The notes under the pieces were generated by a model. The model was not told the DNA's origin and searched no databases. It saw nothing but the letters and a program-made list of their open reading frames with translations. Both the position numbers and the translations under genes were made by a program. Shown here piece after piece: positions 12,486 through 46,824 of a stretch of DNA of 64,000 bases (position 1 is its first letter; each line of letters begins with the position of its first letter). This stretch comes from a virus. Where the stretch lies: positions 1-64,000 of the IMG/VR virus record IMGVR_UViG_3300045119_000356. The stretch is one strand, 5' to 3'.

Positions 12486-12491
12486 TCGCTC

Positions 12492-17196: not shown

Positions 17197-17246
17197 CAGC
17201 GAACTCGCCGCGACTTTGAGGTATGGCGCTGCTCACGTCCGCTCAC
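17196..17246 (-). CDS. Leaderless 16-codon leader peptide
   Basis: GTG AGC GGA CGT begins 7 bases after TAGGCT (17254-17259) and reads VSGREQRHTSKSRRVR to a TGA that overlaps the next ATG. It is probably a short coupling ORF that delivers ribosomes from a leaderless start to the downstream genes rather than a functional peptide. The first four codons are part of the duplicated 33-bp cassette. Confidence 0.45.
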   Translation of the reverse strand: MSGREQRHTSKSRRVR

Positions 17247-17267
17247 GGGCGCAAGCCTAGCGCGACT
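17235..17267 (-). repeat. 33-bp promoter cassette, copy 1
   Basis: Identical over 33 bp to 18875-18907. It holds the -10 box TAGGCT, the 7-base gap and the start GTG AGC GGA CGT. It overlaps the end of the amidase gene. Confidence 0.85.
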
Positions 17268-18119: not shown

Positions 18120-18886
18120 CAGGCCTGGCCACACTCCACCGTGCTGACGCGCAACCGGTCGTGGGGTGACCACAGCCGTCGCCTGCGCTCGCGGCGGGAG
18201 CCGCGTGGGAACCCGGCCGGGCGCACGCCCGCGACCTCCTCAGCGTCTATGCGCTCGCCACCGACTTGATGCCAGCCCTCGTCAACGTGACGAAGATCCA
18301 GGAAGGAGAGGTATCCGCCTCGAGCGATCTCGAAAGGTTCGGTGACATGGCCGCCGTAGGAGAGCTTGACGCCCTTCCTGGCATGGTTGTAATCGAAGAA
18401 CTGCGGCAGGACGAAATCTGAAAGCAAGACGCCTTCTACTTCGATCCCGAACTCATCTGCCTCAACGGCGTCGCAGTTCTCTTCCGCGTAGAGCTTCCCG
18501 CTGCGCGGATCAAGCACGGTGCGGTTGATCCAGGGGTCGCCCAGCATCTCCAGCGTCTCATGGCCGATCGTGACCGAGATCTCCGCGCCCGCTTCCTGCG
18601 TCGTCTTGGCGAAGGCCTTGCCGACTGGCAGTAGCGCCGGGGTCAGGTCGTGATAACCGAGCGCGCCGGCCTGGTCGGCGTCGTCAGTAGCGACGATCCA
18701 CCATGCGTTCGGGTCGGCCTTCGAGCCGCGCGGGACGAATTCGATCTTCGCCGCGGTGCCCCAGGTCGGCCGAAACTGCACGTCGATCTGCCGCTGGAGA
18801 GCCTTCGCGATCTTGGCGCCCTCAACATCGTCCAGCAACGGCGACTCGTTGACGATCTGCAACCGAATCCGCATACGTCCGCTCAC
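18119..18886 (-). CDS. Putative zincin-like protein with HExxE motif
   Basis: 255 residues. The centre reads VTIGHETLEMLGDPWINR: an HExxE helix with a following D-P, and a later DAVEADEFGIEVEG segment. Such His-Glu helices are typical of zinc peptidase-like phage and bacterial proteins, though the second His of HExxH is replaced by Glu. The N-terminal half (KALQRQIDVQFRPTWGTAAKIEFVPRG, WWIVATDDAD) is alpha/beta. Leaderless GTG start at 18886 within the duplicated promoter cassette. Function unknown; proteolytic maturation or lysis are options. Confidence 0.6.
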   Translation of the reverse strand: MSGRMRIRLQIVNESPLLDDVEGAKIAKALQRQIDVQFRPTWGTAAKIEFVPRGSKADPNAWWIVATDDADQAGALGYHDLTPALLPVGKAFAKTTQEAGAEISVTIGHETLEMLGDPWINRTVLDPRSGKLYAEENCDAVEADEFGIEVEGVLLSDFVLPQFFDYNHARKGVKLSYGGHVTEPFEIARGGYLSFLDLRHVDEGWHQVGGERIDAEEVAGVRPAGFPRGSRRERRRRLWSPHDRLRVSTVECGQA

Positions 18887-18907
18887 GGGCGCAAGCCTAG
18901 CGCGACT
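18875..18907 (-). repeat. 33-bp promoter cassette, copy 2
   Basis: Identical to 17235-17267. The -10 TAGGCT is at 18894-18899, 7 bases before GTG 18886. Sequence on both sides differs from copy 1, so the repeat ends sharply. Confidence 0.85.
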
Positions 18908-18927
18908 GCTTTGCCCTTCGCTTGCAC
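18883..18927 (-). CDS. Leaderless 14-codon leader peptide
   Basis: GTG CAA GCG starts 7 bases after TAGGGT (18935-18940) and reads VQAKGKAVALGLRP to a TGA overlapping the GTG of the next gene (GTGA). It gives a second, upstream leaderless entry into the 18119-18886 gene. Low certainty as a product; high interest as a coupling device. Confidence 0.4.
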   Translation of the reverse strand: MQAKGKAVALGLRP

Positions 18928-18934
18928 GGCGCGC

Positions 18935-19019
18935 ACCCTAGCACCTGAGTGCTCGGCCCTATCGCCGAAGCCAGCGAGGAGTCGGTGCAGGTCCGGCGGC
19001 GGCCGAAGCACTCAGGTCG
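18935..19019 (-). promoter_or_regulatory. Operator-type promoter inside an inverted repeat
   Basis: The operator variant GCACCTGAGTGC (18941-18952) directly abuts the extended -10 TGC-TAGGGT. The sequence 18943-18958 is repeated inverted at 19001-19017 (one extra A), leaving a ~42-bp loop. The pair could be two operator half-arrays bridged by a dimeric protein, or an RNA hairpin ending the transcript of the 19030-19251 gene. Confidence 0.55.
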
Positions 19020-19029
19020 GCGCACCCTA

Positions 19030-21421: not shown

Positions 21422-21555
21422 CAGGGCACCCTCAACCGCAGGCGCCGCAACAGCTCATCGCTGGAGTTGGGGTCGCGACCAGCCCGCTTTGAGCGCCGTC
21501 GCCAACGCCGATCTCGGCGCCGAGCCTTCATCTCCCTGCGACTCCGGGTGTCCAC
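21421..21555 (-). CDS. Arg-rich 44-residue protein, first late gene
   Basis: Leaderless GTG start 6 bases after TAGGAT, reading to a TGA that overlaps the next ATG. The product is extremely basic (RREMKARRRDRRWRRRSKRAGRD), then a helix SSDELLRRLRLRVP. It opens the operon that contains terL and could touch DNA near the packaging or origin region. Internal ATG 21531 is an alternative start with GCAGGGAG before it. Confidence 0.55.
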   Translation of the reverse strand: MDTRSRREMKARRRDRRWRRRSKRAGRDPNSSDELLRRLRLRVP

Positions 21556-21561
21556 GCTCCG

Positions 21562-21567
21562 ATCCTA
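21562..21567 (-). promoter_or_regulatory. Leaderless late promoter -10 (TAGGAT)
   Basis: TAGGAT lies 6 bases before the GTG at 21555. It is the first promoter after the non-coding control region and would drive the basic protein, the DUF6527-like gene and terL. Confidence 0.55.
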
Positions 21568-21599
21568 GCCTCCCGTCTCGCGCGTCCGCAGAGGCGTAC

Positions 21600-21790
21600 G
21601 GGCGGGCGGCCACACGGGGCACCCCCGCGCTCCGTCTCGGTGTGGATAACTTGGATAACTGTCGCCTATCCGCTTCAAAGCCCTGCAAGCTACGCAAGAG
21701 CTACCCCCTTGGATAGCGGATAACGCCTCCTTACGCGGGCGCGCGGGGGCGCGGGCGCGTAGGACGGCTATCCGCGGTGGGGTACGCTGA
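21600..21790. other. Candidate replication origin with DnaA-box cluster
   Basis: Non-coding. The perfect DnaA box TGTGGATAA lies at 21641-21649. Further GGATAAC/GGATAG or TATCC motifs lie at 21653, 21666, 21711, 21717 and 21769. Very GC-rich palindromic tracts (GGGCGCGCGGGGGCGCGGGCGCG, 21738-21759) flank them. A similar region lies at 59050-59182. No AT-rich unwinding stretch is obvious, which is the main weakness. Confidence 0.5.
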
Positions 21791-21904
21791 GCACGCCTGG
21801 AGGCACCGCGGAGCATGGTCGAGGGCCGCGGCGTAGCCACTCCGGGCGGCGGTGACGGCGCGCTCGCACTTACCGGGGCTGAGCGCGACGGCCGCCTGGG
21901 CGAA

Positions 21905-21951
21905 CGCCCTCCGTCTTCAGGTGCGACGAGCGCAACCAGTGACGGAGGGCG
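21905..21951. other. Long hairpin in control region
   Basis: CGCCCTCCGTC and GACGGAGGGCG form a perfect 11-bp stem. The 25-base loop can pair again (GGTGCG with CGCAACC, one bulge). It lies downstream of the promoter at 22073-22078 and upstream of the DnaA-box cluster. No gene was seen between 21556 and 22408. Confidence 0.55.
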
Positions 21952-22072
21952 AAGCGCATCGCTTCTAGGTAACCCGCCCCCTCACGAGCGATCGGCTAGG
22001 GACGGCGCGCCTAGCGAGGCTCAGACCTCACGCCAAACGACAAGGCAACCTGAGTCCCACTAGGTCGGTAGA

Positions 22073-22090
22073 AGCCTAGCACCTAGGTAC
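22073..22090 (-). promoter_or_regulatory. Operator-abutting promoter, copy 2 of control region
   Basis: Operator GCACCTAGGTAC (22079-22090) followed directly on the minus strand by the extended -10 TGC-TAGGCT (22073-22078). The transcript would enter the hairpin at 21905-21951 and the candidate origin without a recognisable gene. Confidence 0.62.
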
Positions 22091-22107
22091 AACAGAGCGC
22101 GGGCGGC

Positions 22108-22267
22108 CCGCAGAGGTCCGGGCTTGCAAGTCCTCGCCTCTGCGGTCGTCAGTTGCCTTCCCGCATGACCCCGCCTTTAGGTTCGACGATTCGGCGGGGA
22201 ACCTTACACCGGTCCCTCTCCATTTGGTCGTCGATGCCTCGGCGACGTAAGATCGGGCTCAGCGTTA
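22108..22267 (-). ncRNA. Candidate structured small RNA
   Basis: About 160 nt between two operator-promoters with no credible reading frame. Transcription from the -10 at 22274-22279 would produce an RNA with a GTCG/CGAC hairpin near 22235, a CCCCGCC/GGCGGGG stem (22169-22175 with 22193-22199) and a final CCGCAGAGG/CCTCTGCGG stem (22108-22116 with 22137-22145). The last stem has an inner CTTGCAAG pairing and could be the 3' end. No tRNA fold fits. Product and function unknown. Confidence 0.45.
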
Positions 22268-22273
22268 AGTCTC

Positions 22274-22291
22274 AGTGTAGCACCTAGGTAC
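22274..22291 (-). promoter_or_regulatory. Operator-abutting promoter, copy 1 of control region
   Basis: Operator GCACCTAGGTAC (22280-22291) directly precedes the extended -10 TGC-TACACT (22274-22279) on the minus strand. It is the same arrangement as at 22073 and 19258. Confidence 0.65.
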
Positions 22292-22297
22292 AAAGAC

Positions 22298-22335
22298 GGC
22301 CCGCCGCGCGAGGCAGGGGTGTCGCGCGGCGGGCC
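22298..22335 (-). terminator. 14-bp hairpin terminator ending the early region
   Basis: GGCCCGCCGCGCGA and TCGCGCGGCGGGCC are a perfect 14-bp stem with a 10-base loop. It stands after the last early gene (stop at 22409) and before the control-region promoters. No T-tract follows. Confidence 0.7.
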
Positions 22336-22408
22336 TGGGTGTGCCGCGCTCGGGAAATGGCGTCGGCCACTGTGGCGCTCGCAGCCTACATCGCGAGCAC
22401 CGTGCTGG

Positions 22409-41608: not shown

Positions 41609-41642
41609 GGAGAGCCCCCGGCGGGGACGCCAGGGGCTCTCC
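41609..41642 (-). terminator. Rho-independent-type terminator
   Basis: GGAGAGCCCC and GGGGCTCTCC form a perfect 10-bp stem with a 14-base loop. On the minus strand it is followed by TTTCGTT. It separates the 41668-42426 gene from the primase gene. Confidence 0.72.
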
Positions 41643-42446: not shown

Positions 42447-42923
42447 TTAGTCAGAGACTGGCGCCAGTTGCTCCGGCGCCTCTTGCTCTTTGGCTTTCTT
42501 CGCTTTCACGACGATCTTGTATTTGGGCTCGAAGAGGAGCACTCCCTCCAGCTCGGGAGGTAGGTCGCGGTCCCAGTGCTCTTCTTTCGCGAGCGATGAA
42601 ACGCTCTTGGAGTTGTAACCCTCGGTTACGTACTCGCCGTAGCCCGCCGCCTTCAATGCTCCGCAGATCACAGCCTTGCGCGTGGCCTTGCCCTCGTCGC
42701 CATCTCCCTCAGGCAAGACGATTTTCACGAAGCCCTCCCTGCGCATGGAAAGCACCGCGTTCGTGAGCGGCACGCCTTTGACCGACTCCGCCGCCCATTG
42801 CTCCAGAACCTCGTCTTCGAGTTTCTCCAGCTCGCCGTTGATCTCCTTCGCCCGTTCAGCGATCTGGCGCTTCTCGAACGTCAACGCAGCGATCTTCCGC
42901 TCCTTCTCGAACCGATCTGCCAC
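42447..42923 (-). CDS. Coiled-coil protein of replication region
   Basis: 158 residues from GTG 42923 after GGAGAGGAGAAGCA. Residues 1-50 form a coiled coil (EKERKIAALTFEKRQIAERAKEINGELEKLEDEVLEQW). A compact domain follows (FVKIVLPEGDGDEGKATRKAVICGALKAAGYGEYVTEGYNSKSVSSLAKEEHWDRDLPPELEGVLLFEPKYKIVVKAKK). Not recognised; the build resembles phage proteins paired with the 41668-type family. The start lies 18 bases after a long perfect stem. Confidence 0.6.
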   Translation of the reverse strand: MADRFEKERKIAALTFEKRQIAERAKEINGELEKLEDEVLEQWAAESVKGVPLTNAVLSMRREGFVKIVLPEGDGDEGKATRKAVICGALKAAGYGEYVTEGYNSKSVSSLAKEEHWDRDLPPELEGVLLFEPKYKIVVKAKKAKEQEAPEQLAPVSD

Positions 42924-42941
42924 TGCTTCTCCTCTCCGGGT

Positions 42942-43060
42942 GGACGCTGGCGAGGGGCCGAGCAAGCAGCCACCTTGTCCCCAAGTTGACCTCGCTGCGC
43001 GCCCTCGGCCTCTTCCGGCGAAGGAGTCCGACCTTCGGGGTCGGCCCCTCGCCAGCGTCC
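42942..43060. other. 119-nt element closed by a perfect 20-bp inverted repeat
   Basis: GGACGCTGGCGAGGGGCCGA (42942-42961) is exactly repeated inverted at 43041-43060. The 79-bp interior can form more hairpins (CCGACC-TTCGG-GGTCGG at 43028-43044, and an AACTTG/CAAGGT pair near 42975). On the minus strand it is the leader directly before the ribosome site of the 42447-42923 gene. No gene fits inside. It could be a cis-acting RNA, a small RNA or a MITE-like insert; no clear target duplication was seen. Confidence 0.7.
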
Positions 43061-43105
43061 TGGCCTAGTGCTTGTGGGCACCCTACACCAGGACGCCCTA
43101 GATTT

Positions 43106-43117
43106 GTACCTAGGTTT
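43106..43117. promoter_or_regulatory. Operator variant at 43.1 kb
   Basis: GTACCTAGGTTT (10 of 12 to consensus), overlapping the stop of the 43116-43466 gene. A poor TAGGGT lies 26 bases downstream on the minus strand, so its promoter is unclear. Confidence 0.5.
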
Positions 43118-43797: not shown

Positions 43798-44036
43798 AGA
43801 ACGGCGCGCTCGACTTCCCTGACGCCGTTCGGAGCGTCCTGCGGCCCAAGGATCTCGACCTTCTTCACCTCACCGAAGCCATAGGCAACCGGCGGGCCGC
43901 TGCCGATGTCTAGGGCGATGGTCGGCTCTCCCCGCTCGTTGATCATGACTCCGACGAACTTACCCGCCGTTGCCGTCTGCTTGCTGTGAACGTCGATGCG
44001 GGTACCGGGCTTCAGGAAAATCATCTTCTCGATCAT
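43794..44036 (-). CDS. Small SH3-like barrel protein
   Basis: 80 residues from ATG 44036. KPGTRIDVHSKQTATAGKFVGVMINERGEPTIALDIGSGPPVAYGFGEVKKVEILG has the strand spacing of an SH3 or Sm barrel. Downstream neighbour of the SNF2-type helicase (ATGA overlap). Unknown. Confidence 0.58.
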   Translation of the reverse strand: MIEKMIFLKPGTRIDVHSKQTATAGKFVGVMINERGEPTIALDIGSGPPVAYGFGEVKKVEILGPQDAPNGVREVERAVL

Positions 44037-46558
44037 GCTGCGATCTCCTCTCCTTCTTCGGCGGGTGTGACTTCGAGCCGGCCGTGTTCCTTGGCCGCCG
44101 CGATGCACGCCTCGACGATGTCTTTGCGCTCTCTCAGCGCCCGAATGATGATCTCGTCCACGGTGCCCTCGGCCACCAGGAAGCCGAACCGCACGAGCTT
44201 CGTCTGACCTGGGCGGTCCTGGCGCTTTCGCACCTGAGCGTAGAGACCGAGATCAAGGATCAAGCTGTAGAAAAAGCCATAGCAAGAGCGAGTCAGGTCG
44301 ATGCCTTCCGCGCCGGCCTGGATCTGCACGCCGAGCAGATCGCAGTCGGGATTCATCGTGCCATCGGAGCTCGGGTCGTCGGGATCCTCAACCAGACCGT
44401 CCTCGCGGTGCCCGGAGATCTCCGCATAGCGCCGGCCGGTTTCGGCGGCGACTTCCTCGATTCGCCGCAGATCCTCGGTGAAGCGCGCGTAGACCACAGC
44501 GGGCTCACCAGGCGGGAGATCTTCGAGCTCGTCGCGCAGGAGCTTCTTCTTCTCCTCTCCGACCGAGACCACCTCGCGCTCCTCGTCCTCCCCGACGAAG
44601 AGATGGCCGGAGGTGACCTGCTGGAGGCGGAGCAGTCGCGCCAGCGTGTTCGCCGCGGTGACCGGCTCGCCGTCCTCTTCGCCTCCGCCGACCCAGGTGA
44701 TGAAGTCATCGGCAAGGTTCTGGTAGGCCTTGGCCGCCTCGGCGTCGAGCTCGCAGGTCACAGCCGGCATGTCGATCGCGCCGGGAAGGTCGAGCACGTC
44801 CTCGTCGCAGATGTAGGCGAGGCGCTGCCAAGCGGCATTGAATTCGTCCTCGGCCGCTTTGCTCAGGAAGCCCTCGACCTCCTTGCCTTCAAAGCCGCCC
44901 ATCTCGAAGAAGCGGCGCTGGAAGTGCGAAAAGTTCGTGCCGAAAATGCCGGGGTCGATGGTGCGGAACTGGCCGTAAACGTCCGGCTCGGAGTGCGGCA
45001 TAACCGTGCCCGTCTTGCCCAGTACCTTGCCGGCCGGCCTGACTCGCTTGCGCAACTCAGAAGCCGACTTCGACCACTTGCCGCCAGCTTTCTTGATCTT
45101 GTGCATCTCGTCGAGGCCGAGCACATCGGGCTCCAACGACATGAGAAATTCGCGCATCGCGCCTTGCCAGAACGCTTCGTAGTTGACGACCAGCGCGACC
45201 GGCCTGTCTTCTTCGTAGCCCAGCTTCAGGTTCTCTTTCATCCGCTCGACGCGCTCGGCCAGCGAGACGCCCTTGCGCCAGCCATCGCCGCGCTTCTTGC
45301 GAAAGCGCCCGTTGTCCACGATCCAGTCGCGCTCGCCCCATTTCGCGAACTCGCGCGGCCATACCTTGCGCACCTTCGACGGGCAGAGCTCGATGACGAG
45401 CTCGACATTCCAGGCTTCGTAGAGCTTGACCGAGACCAGGGACTTGCCGGTATTGCCAACGACGATCCCGTTTGCGATATAGGCGTGCGCGTCATCGTCA
45501 ACACTGAGGTCGTAAACATACGCTTCGCCAGCAGGATCAACGCTCACAACCTCATCGAGAAGCGGAATAAATAGACCCTGCCCCTCGTCGAGGCGAAGAA
45601 CGTCTACGTGCTCCTGCATGTGTTCAGAATGCGAAGTCTTTACATCGAGATTCGTGGGTGTGTTGTCGTGCTTGATTTCGTTGCGATGATGAACGGTCTC
45701 ACCTGGGTTCAGGGGACGGCCAAGCTTTTCCTCAGCGACGAGAATGTGCTCATAGACGCCCCCTGTCCCTTCGCGTGGGTGGCCAGTCCCCCGAAGACGG
45801 ATGTACCCATCCTTATCCAGGTAGCGACCGTTAGTAAGCACCTGGTCACCAGGGGCCAAGTTCTCCGCATGCACCTTCCCGTTCGGTGTAACGATCTCAT
45901 GGTCGCGAGTACAAGTCAGGCCCTTTCCTGACTTCAAGGTCAACTTGACAACTGGCTTCACACCGTTATCGAGCGCGGCGGTCAGTTTGACCAGCCCTAG
46001 TGTCCCGTCCGCTTTGAAACCTCGGACATAGGTAGGAATCGACCGATCCCAGCCCCGAAATCCATTTCCTGAGTTAACTGCTCCGCCATTGAACTTCGCG
46101 ACAACCTCATCCAGACGACGCCGACGCGAATTTCCGCCTCGGTTAACGGTGATCTCTGAGTCGCCTGTTAGGCAGCCCATGCCCATCACCAGCGCATAGC
46201 CTTCCTGCGGGAGCGCCGACCAGTAAGCCTGACGCTGCCACAGCCACCCTCCGCCCTCCGGGTTGAGCTCCGAAGGCGGAACGCCGGGAATCGGCGGGAG
46301 CTCCTCAGCGAAGCGCAGGGCCCGCGCCTCGTCGGCTTCAGCCGCGCGGGAGAAGAGCTCCAGCGAGTCGAGGTCGCAGCGCACGTCACCGAGATGCGAG
46401 CGCACAGCGAGCGCTGACTCCTGGGTCGCCGGCACGTGCCAGCGCCTGCGCTTTTTGTCCCAGCGCCGGCCGCCCAGCTTCTTGACCTCATCCTTCAGAT
46501 CGAACGGCGTCGCCAGCACCAGCCGCGAGCCCTCGCGCGTAACCGTCGAGACGCTCAT
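44033..46558 (-). CDS. SNF2-type DEAD/H helicase with intein
   Basis: 841 residues before splicing, ~600 after. The N-terminal ~60 residues (FDLKDEVKKLGGRRWDKKRRRWHVP) resemble a HARP/RecA-associated clip seen in SMARCAL1-like enzymes. The Walker A motif is split: MGMG (125-128), then the intein (129-369), then TGKS (370-373), giving GMGTGKS after splicing. Motif II is LGLDEMHKIKK. The C-terminal half carries GVQIQAGAEGIDL and the SNF2 motif VI QVRKRQDRPGQ. ATP-driven DNA remodelling in replication or repair is likely. ATG 46558 overlaps the upstream stop. Confidence 0.9.
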   Translation of the reverse strand: MSVSTVTREGSRLVLATPFDLKDEVKKLGGRRWDKKRRRWHVPATQESALAVRSHLGDVRCDLDSLELFSRAAEADEARALRFAEELPPIPGVPPSELNPEGGGWLWQRQAYWSALPQEGYALVMGMGCLTGDSEITVNRGGNSRRRRLDEVVAKFNGGAVNSGNGFRGWDRSIPTYVRGFKADGTLGLVKLTAALDNGVKPVVKLTLKSGKGLTCTRDHEIVTPNGKVHAENLAPGDQVLTNGRYLDKDGYIRLRGTGHPREGTGGVYEHILVAEEKLGRPLNPGETVHHRNEIKHDNTPTNLDVKTSHSEHMQEHVDVLRLDEGQGLFIPLLDEVVSVDPAGEAYVYDLSVDDDAHAYIANGIVVGNTGKSLVSVKLYEAWNVELVIELCPSKVRKVWPREFAKWGERDWIVDNGRFRKKRGDGWRKGVSLAERVERMKENLKLGYEEDRPVALVVNYEAFWQGAMREFLMSLEPDVLGLDEMHKIKKAGGKWSKSASELRKRVRPAGKVLGKTGTVMPHSEPDVYGQFRTIDPGIFGTNFSHFQRRFFEMGGFEGKEVEGFLSKAAEDEFNAAWQRLAYICDEDVLDLPGAIDMPAVTCELDAEAAKAYQNLADDFITWVGGGEEDGEPVTAANTLARLLRLQQVTSGHLFVGEDEEREVVSVGEEKKKLLRDELEDLPPGEPAVVYARFTEDLRRIEEVAAETGRRYAEISGHREDGLVEDPDDPSSDGTMNPDCDLLGVQIQAGAEGIDLTRSCYGFFYSLILDLGLYAQVRKRQDRPGQTKLVRFGFLVAEGTVDEIIIRALRERKDIVEACIAAAKEHGRLEVTPAEEGEEIAA
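45452..46174 (-). mobile_element. Intein with HNH homing endonuclease in Walker A
   Basis: 241 residues. Begins CLTGDSEITV (Cys1, block A). Block B is GKGLTCTRDHEIVTPNG (T-x-x-H). It ends VYDLSVDDDAHAYIANGIVVGN (blocks F and G) before extein Thr370. The penultimate residue is Gly rather than the usual His. Residues ~250-318 hold an HNH_3-type nuclease (GYIRLRG...YEHILVAEEKLGRPLNPGETVHHRNEIKHDNTPTNLDV). Codon use is visibly more AT-rich than the host gene, so it is a recent arrival. Confidence 0.88.
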
Positions 46559-46824
46559 GGACGGCGTCGCCAGTGCAGCAGGAAGGTCAAGCAAGGACGC
46601 CTGAAGGAGTGGAAGAGCCGAAGATTCCAGCCGTCGCGCCCGTTCAGCCCGGCCCATGATCGCCAGAGGTAGATGCGCTTACCTAGGCCATTCGAGCCAG
46701 GTGCCGTCCCGAAGGTAAATCCGAAGCGAACCCATCGCGACCGGCGTGCCGATGACTCAGCGCTCGACACATAGAAATCGAGGTAGGGACCGCGGCGATC
46801 CCACTCTGCCTTGGAGCTGATCAC
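46555..46824 (-). CDS. Small basic aromatic protein
   Basis: 89 residues from GTG 46824: WDRRGPYLDFYVSSAESSARRSRWVRFGFTFGTAPGSNGLGKRIYLWRSWAGLNGRDGWNLRLFHSF. Beta-rich, many Arg and Trp. Overlaps both neighbours by 4 bases. Not recognised. Confidence 0.5.
   Translation of the reverse strand: MISSKAEWDRRGPYLDFYVSSAESSARRSRWVRFGFTFGTAPGSNGLGKRIYLWRSWAGLNGRDGWNLRLFHSFRRPCLTFLLHWRRRP

Follow-up and report, generated by a model that had tools for sequence, protein, structure and literature searches.

A 119-nt element (42942-43060) closed by a perfect 20-bp stem lies in the putative leader of a replication sub-operon of an uncultivated phage, and is best explained, with a confidence that stays somewhat below even, as a lineage-specific, bistable, cis-acting structured leader RNA. 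The window analyzed comprises 64,000 nucleotides (positions 1 to 64,000) of IMG/VR record IMGVR_UViG_3300045119_000356, which totals 70,275 bases at 64% GC and carries nearly all of its genes on the minus strand. Because all genes in this region are on that strand, the printed sequence must be reverse-complemented to read the leader RNA, and 5′ and 3′ are given below in transcript sense. The element is real and exceeds chance expectation. The options raised for it in the initial annotation (a cis-acting RNA switch, a stable small RNA, a primase initiation site or a MITE-like insert) are partly supported.

The 5′ arm (43041-43060, minus strand) and the 3′ arm (42942-42961, minus strand) are exact, with 100% complementarity, as the initial annotation had described, and enclose a 79-nt interior (42962-43040, minus strand) that is 68% GC and itself structured. 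All 20 pairs are Watson-Crick with no G-U, a composition that counts against a leader RNA in being equally compatible with a DNA-level palindrome or with recent emergence. The stem is the longest perfect inverted repeat in the window for spacers of up to 300 nt (the runner-up has 15 bp), and the longest repeats in Markov-simulated windows (n = 60) spanned 11-18 bp, with 0/60 at 20 bp; this excess over chance favors a leader RNA. Folding of the element as plus-strand RNA gave a z-score of -6.3 (0/200 shuffles). An inner CCGACC-TTCGG-GGTCGG hairpin, also noted previously, was located at 43029-43045, where it overlaps the right arm and hence competes with the closing stem. The reported 18-nt distance to the start codon holds as well: the GTG lies at 42921-42923, and homology within the gene family begins at this codon.

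That codon opens g42447 (42447-42923, minus strand), which encodes a 158-aa protein resembling Pam3 gp33 through a DUF7307 match below the Pfam cut-off. The gene sits within a helicase-primase block, in keeping with the earlier description of a replication-gene leader. Along the minus strand, the block reads SNF2-type helicase with an intein, three small genes, g42447, g41668 (phrog_23155), AEP-type primase, methyltransferase and UvrD-like helicase. The three small genes have no homologue among the relatives compared. g42447 is conserved beside the SNF2 helicase and g41668. The only domain matched in the primase is the RepB_primase_C helical domain (PF22448). The intein that splits the SNF2-type helicase (window 44033-46657, minus strand) contains an HNH endonuclease domain. 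Genes in this row are tightly packed, with 4-nt overlaps or gaps of ~20 nt; the row is broken by the 192-nt gap between g43116 and g42447 (42924-43115), an interruption that supports a leader function. Between g41668 and the primase gene, a 15-bp perfect hairpin with a 4-nt loop and a weak T-tail was observed at 41609-41642 (minus strand), in a gap whose fold has a z-score of -5.1; it is possibly an intra-operon terminator or attenuator. The presence of such a hairpin further down the operon, before the primase gene, also counts in favor of a regulatory leader.

The entire 192-nt gap is structured. In transcript sense, it is organized as an operator-like palindrome, P0 (CCTAGGTACAAATCTAGG, 43097-43114), a hairpin, P1 (GCGTCCTGG...CCAGGACGC, 43055-43096, minus strand), the 119-nt element, four bases, a Shine-Dalgarno region (GGAGAGGAG, 42929-42937, minus strand) and the GTG. 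P1 was missed in the initial annotation; its 3′ strand has six bases, GGACGC, in common with the 5′ arm of the element. The operator that the initial annotation placed directly before the element is P0, which is separated from it by 36 nt. An operator-like site at the head of the leader and a ribosome site at its foot argue for a leader; no sigma-70-like promoter consensus was found there, which argues against one.

P0 belongs to a family of CCTAGG-centered palindromes (approximately TAGTACCTAGGTACTA) that occupy intergenic gaps, as a rule with a start codon following some 15-55 nt later. A site census of the window placed family members at 12491, 19267, 22082, 22283, 22739, 27725, 29756, 31864, 36059, 43109, 46682, 47897 and 52594. 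CCTAGG sites are intergenic in 12/15 cases (binomial p 1e-9), and a phage regulator probably uses these palindromes as its operators. CCTAGG is absent from the 27 kb of the relative whose terminase is 76% identical, where one TAGTACCTTGGTGC does occur at ~3043. A 987-bp stretch devoid of predicted genes (window 21422-22408), possibly a regulatory or immunity region, contains two of the CCTAGG sites along with a hairpin of 14 bp (22298-22335). Elsewhere in the window, the intergenic gaps 17197-17265 and 18875-19029 contain an identical 31-nt sequence.

Support for a two-state RNA comes from an alternative fold that matches the closing stem in energy. In fold A, most of the 5′ arm is taken up by a local hairpin, P2 (43017-43053, minus strand), and the 3′ arm by another, P3 (42944-43016, minus strand); together with P0 and P1, and without the closing stem, this fold has a computed energy of -101.7 kcal/mol. 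Fold B, with the closing stem enforced over its 16 inner pairs, reaches -100.9 kcal/mol. The closing stem cannot coexist with the local hairpins, and the energies of the two folds, computed with soft constraints, differ by -0.8 to 0 kcal/mol. When the upstream 55 nt and the loop were shuffled with the arms kept, the difference rose to 19±5 kcal/mol and balance was reached in 0/300 and 0/200 cases. Shuffling the upstream 55 nt alone gave balance in 0/200 and shuffling the loop alone in 4/200, indicating that the alternative fold requires both. Two exclusive folds of similar energy beyond chance, as looked for in a riboswitch or bistable leader, are therefore present. The transcribed strand shows the closest balance: with matching flanks, antisense RNA gave a difference of 5.3 (z -2.7, 4/200), and for each piece of the leader the sense fold is the more stable one. 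With single-stranded DNA parameters, the difference was 2.4 (z -3.8, 0/200), a result that weighs against the leader interpretation; since the alternative fold is also significant under these parameters, the balance by itself does not decide between RNA and DNA.

How such a leader would act is constrained by its surroundings. The Shine-Dalgarno is equally accessible in both states (unpaired 0.44 vs 0.45), which speaks against a leader switch and led us to reject a translational switch based on masking of the ribosome site. A transcription attenuator was likewise rejected, as no intrinsic terminator was found in the leader or 3′ of the element. With the ribosome site equally open and no terminator, no ordinary riboswitch expression platform is visible, neither of the two devices appearing in one state only. 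The earlier proposal of a cis-acting RNA switch is partly supported by the significant isoenergetic alternative fold, the equal openness of the Shine-Dalgarno in both folds counting against it.

In the model we propose, transcription would either initiate at, or close to, the operator-like site (43097-43114) or arrive from upstream by read-through, and the sub-operon under control would be g42447, g41668, primase, methyltransferase and UvrD helicase. On the nascent RNA, the local hairpins P1, P2 and P3 would form first and hide both arms; once emerged, the 3′ arm could displace P2 and P3 to yield a closed helix of 16-20 bp ending 4 nt before the Shine-Dalgarno. Neither state being favored energetically, the choice between them could be set by a ligand, a protein, a ribosome or a nuclease. 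With the ribosome site unmasked in either state and no intrinsic terminator, the effect most likely concerns mRNA processing or stability, or the polymerase. One option is that the uninterrupted helix beside the ribosome site may serve as a substrate of host RNase III for processing or stability of the polycistronic mRNA. RNase III sites call for an unbroken RNA helix of about two turns within a cleaved transcript; folding places a helix of 16-20 bp in fold B. Another option is that the leader may act on the elongating polymerase, letting it pass the hairpin ahead of the primase gene by put-like antitermination.

The element is private to one lineage. No DNA relative was found in 50,697 phage records, and protein-pattern searches with g42447, the primase and g41668 retrieved no relative. 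The closest relative, a 27-kb fragment (76% terminase identity) that spans the structural half only, contains nothing matching the element beyond a 17-nt chance stretch. The SNF2-g42447-g41668-primase block itself is widespread in IMG/VR and Acidobacteriota genomes, at 30-43% helicase identity. Among 163 distinct g42447 homologues, collected by an iterated profile search (E 1e-3) that may have admitted a few false members, the upstream gap is mostly absent through overlap and measures 189 nt at most; no stem of at least 15 bp was found in the 400 nt upstream of any of them, which argues against a leader function and implies that the element is not ancestral to the block. In the relative closest by SNF2, a 14-bp stem near g42447 was rejected as unrelated, having a 12-nt loop followed by TTGTG and appearing terminator-like. 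The arm has no other match among 2.9 million IMG/VR viral contigs, the two-arm pattern has none in 85k genomes, and there is no second copy in the genome. The covariance search suggested in the initial annotation yielded no match better than E 0.04 across 112 loci (1.14 Mb); within the window, the model found the element, its reverse complement and weak matches at E ≥0.015 only. Rfam gave no gathering-threshold match, and none at E 10 on a 331-nt stretch. Both this and the lack of a homologue of the element in the data searched count against the leader reading.

The main alternative, serious though itself unlikely, is that the element is a DNA stem-loop serving as a replication origin or primase-loading site similar to the ~100-nt stem-loop of plasmid pRN1, relocated from a place behind the primase gene to a site ahead of g42447; extruded or single-stranded, it would be bound by the AEP-type primase. 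The pRN1 stem-loop, which lies 54 bp behind the gene and has a 58-nt loop on a 21-bp stem, is required for replication and still works when moved (PMC4234260). The 20-bp stem and 79-nt loop of the element fit these dimensions, all of its pairs are Watson-Crick, and no other stem-loop of its type in the 70-kb genome reaches 15 bp. The option of a primase initiation site turned out stronger than expected, because relatives bear pRN1-like stem-loops adjoining their primase-helicase gene; the gene block is shared too. In 2.09 Mb of relatives there are 24 perfect stems that reach 14 bp and enclose 35-130 nt, vs 0 in simulated sequence, and many of them lie directly behind a primase-helicase gene. 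A stem-loop follows on the 3′ side at 12 of the 15 loci with a long (fused) primase, some of which may be near-duplicates, and in nine cases its offset is +57 to +61 nt. These structures have stems of 15-22 bp and loops of 52-85 nt and usually stand about 60 nt past the gene. The next start codon follows their end by some 20-35 nt, a start codon lying close beyond the element too. The element, however, lacks their position, iterons and helicase. It lies 1.36 kb 5′ of the primase gene rather than 3′ of it, its arms have no tandem units, its loop is strongly folded and GC-rich (relatives' loops have 38-57% GC), and no D5/SF3 or VapE helicase domain was detected in the genome with profiles PF08706 and PF05272, whereas the three long primase proteins scanned contain a D5_N helicase domain. 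In 17 further block records (731 kb), mostly with a split primase, no stem of at least 17 bp with a large loop was found; weaker 3′ stem-loops occur at split-primase loci only in L195 (+65) and L175 (+96), several others being short of 3′ sequence. GC skew does not change at the site of the element, and an equal-energy competing fold was absent from the seven origin-type stem-loops of relatives tested (z -1.6 to +1.7).

The stem-loops of relatives form a set in their own right. Fused ~855-aa AEP primase-D5 helicase loci of Acidobacteriota prophages and environmental phages have a stem-loop 57-61 nt behind the gene (91 in L058), as seen in L053:12058-12162, L054:11166-11257, L055:9220-9318, L058:11169-11264, L062:10770-10878, L134:10065-10179, L136:9189-9293, L145:7134-7234, L146:10042-10141 and L151:6558-6660; these ten have stems of 15-22 bp and loops of about 52-75 nt. 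The arms inspected are built of tandem TGACGG (TGTAGG in L058), often around an alternating GC/AC core. Across relatives, the repeated arm units are ATGACGGGTT ATGACGG in most loci, ATGTAGGGTT ATGTAGGATT in L058 and GGTGACGG in L051, and repeat copies within a locus have changed together. The fused-primase structures look like a pRN1-type origin combined with iterons, pRN1 having been reported without them. At DUF927/CHC2 primase-helicase loci of phages and prophages, stems of 14-18 bp with 42-104-nt loops stand 90-220 nt behind the gene (L014:7815-7941, L028:9459-9538, L042:8784-8917, L046:9505-9576); there the protein has a DnaG-type zinc finger and is not an AEP, and in FP_Epona (L014) its annotation reads DnaG primase - MCM-like helicase.

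The remaining explanations have lower probabilities. An improbable one is a mutational by-product, a quasi-palindrome perfected by template switching during replication and having little or no function. The element is indeed perfect and private, and the gap contains partial copies of the arm complement (GCGTCC/GGACGC three times, and the P2 and P3 strands), as repeated template switching would leave; however, for correction by template switching 79 nt is a long spacer, and three competing hairpins in balance are not usual for such a product. We give a similarly low chance to a trans-acting RNA, small (about 120-170 nt) and stable, that would be processed out of the gap or initiated inside it: the fold after the operator-like site is compact and very stable, but its 3′ end has no intrinsic terminator and runs straight into the ribosome site, and no known RNA family was matched in Rfam. 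A slim chance is also left to an origin-sized stem-loop that doubles as a two-state leader, in which transcription and primase use would exclude each other and expression would be coupled to replication, or to an origin used with a helicase-free AEP primase. The MITE-like insert suggested earlier is very improbable. A 119-nt length, perfect 20-bp terminal inverted repeats without an ORF, absence at this site from all relatives, and an operator-gene distance that would be ~54 nt without the element, near that of other CCTAGG sites, would suit such an insert. Set against this are its single copy in the genome, the absence of arm and two-arm matches in the searches above, and ends that on inspection show no obvious target duplication.

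As a single-genome orphan, the element carries limited weight. If it is a bistable leader, it would be an RNA switch in the replication operon of an uncultivated phage without a known family, and its evenly balanced states would make it a clean test object. If it is an origin hairpin, stem-loop origins of the pRN1 type would extend to phages without a D5/SF3 helicase. A finding made along the way may matter more, namely that a group of Acidobacteriota prophages and environmental phages has a pRN1-kind stem-loop following its primase-helicase gene at a near-fixed interval.

Several known systems resemble parts of this picture. The ssiA/ssiB sites of RSF1010 are 40 nt long with a ~21-nt hairpin (PMC4434180); compared by description, they are linked to the element by the RepB_primase_C domain of the window primase, but the element is three times as long. 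The pRN1 hairpin is a putative origin, and phage BIP-1 has a similar one following its primase gene (PMC4234260). With this pRN1/BPP-1 type the element has in common a ~100-nt stem-loop with a ~20-bp perfect stem, a large loop and a replication gene cluster; it differs in not lying 3′ of the replication-protein (primase) gene, in a genome where the AEP primase is without an SF3/D5 helicase, and in having a GC-rich, structured loop and an alternative fold of equal energy. Phage RNase III processing sites are known from the lambda N leader hairpin and T7 early mRNA, among others. Like them, the element would offer a long uninterrupted RNA helix between a promoter/operator region and a ribosome site on a polycistronic message, although its helix competes with local hairpins and the genome encodes no RNase III of its own. 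The put RNA of HK022, ~70 nt with two stem-loops, acts on RNA polymerase without a protein (PMC9378689). It is smaller than the element and has no long closing stem, and the two sequences were compared via Rfam alone; both are structured phage-operon leaders with consecutive hairpins and a terminator-type hairpin further downstream.
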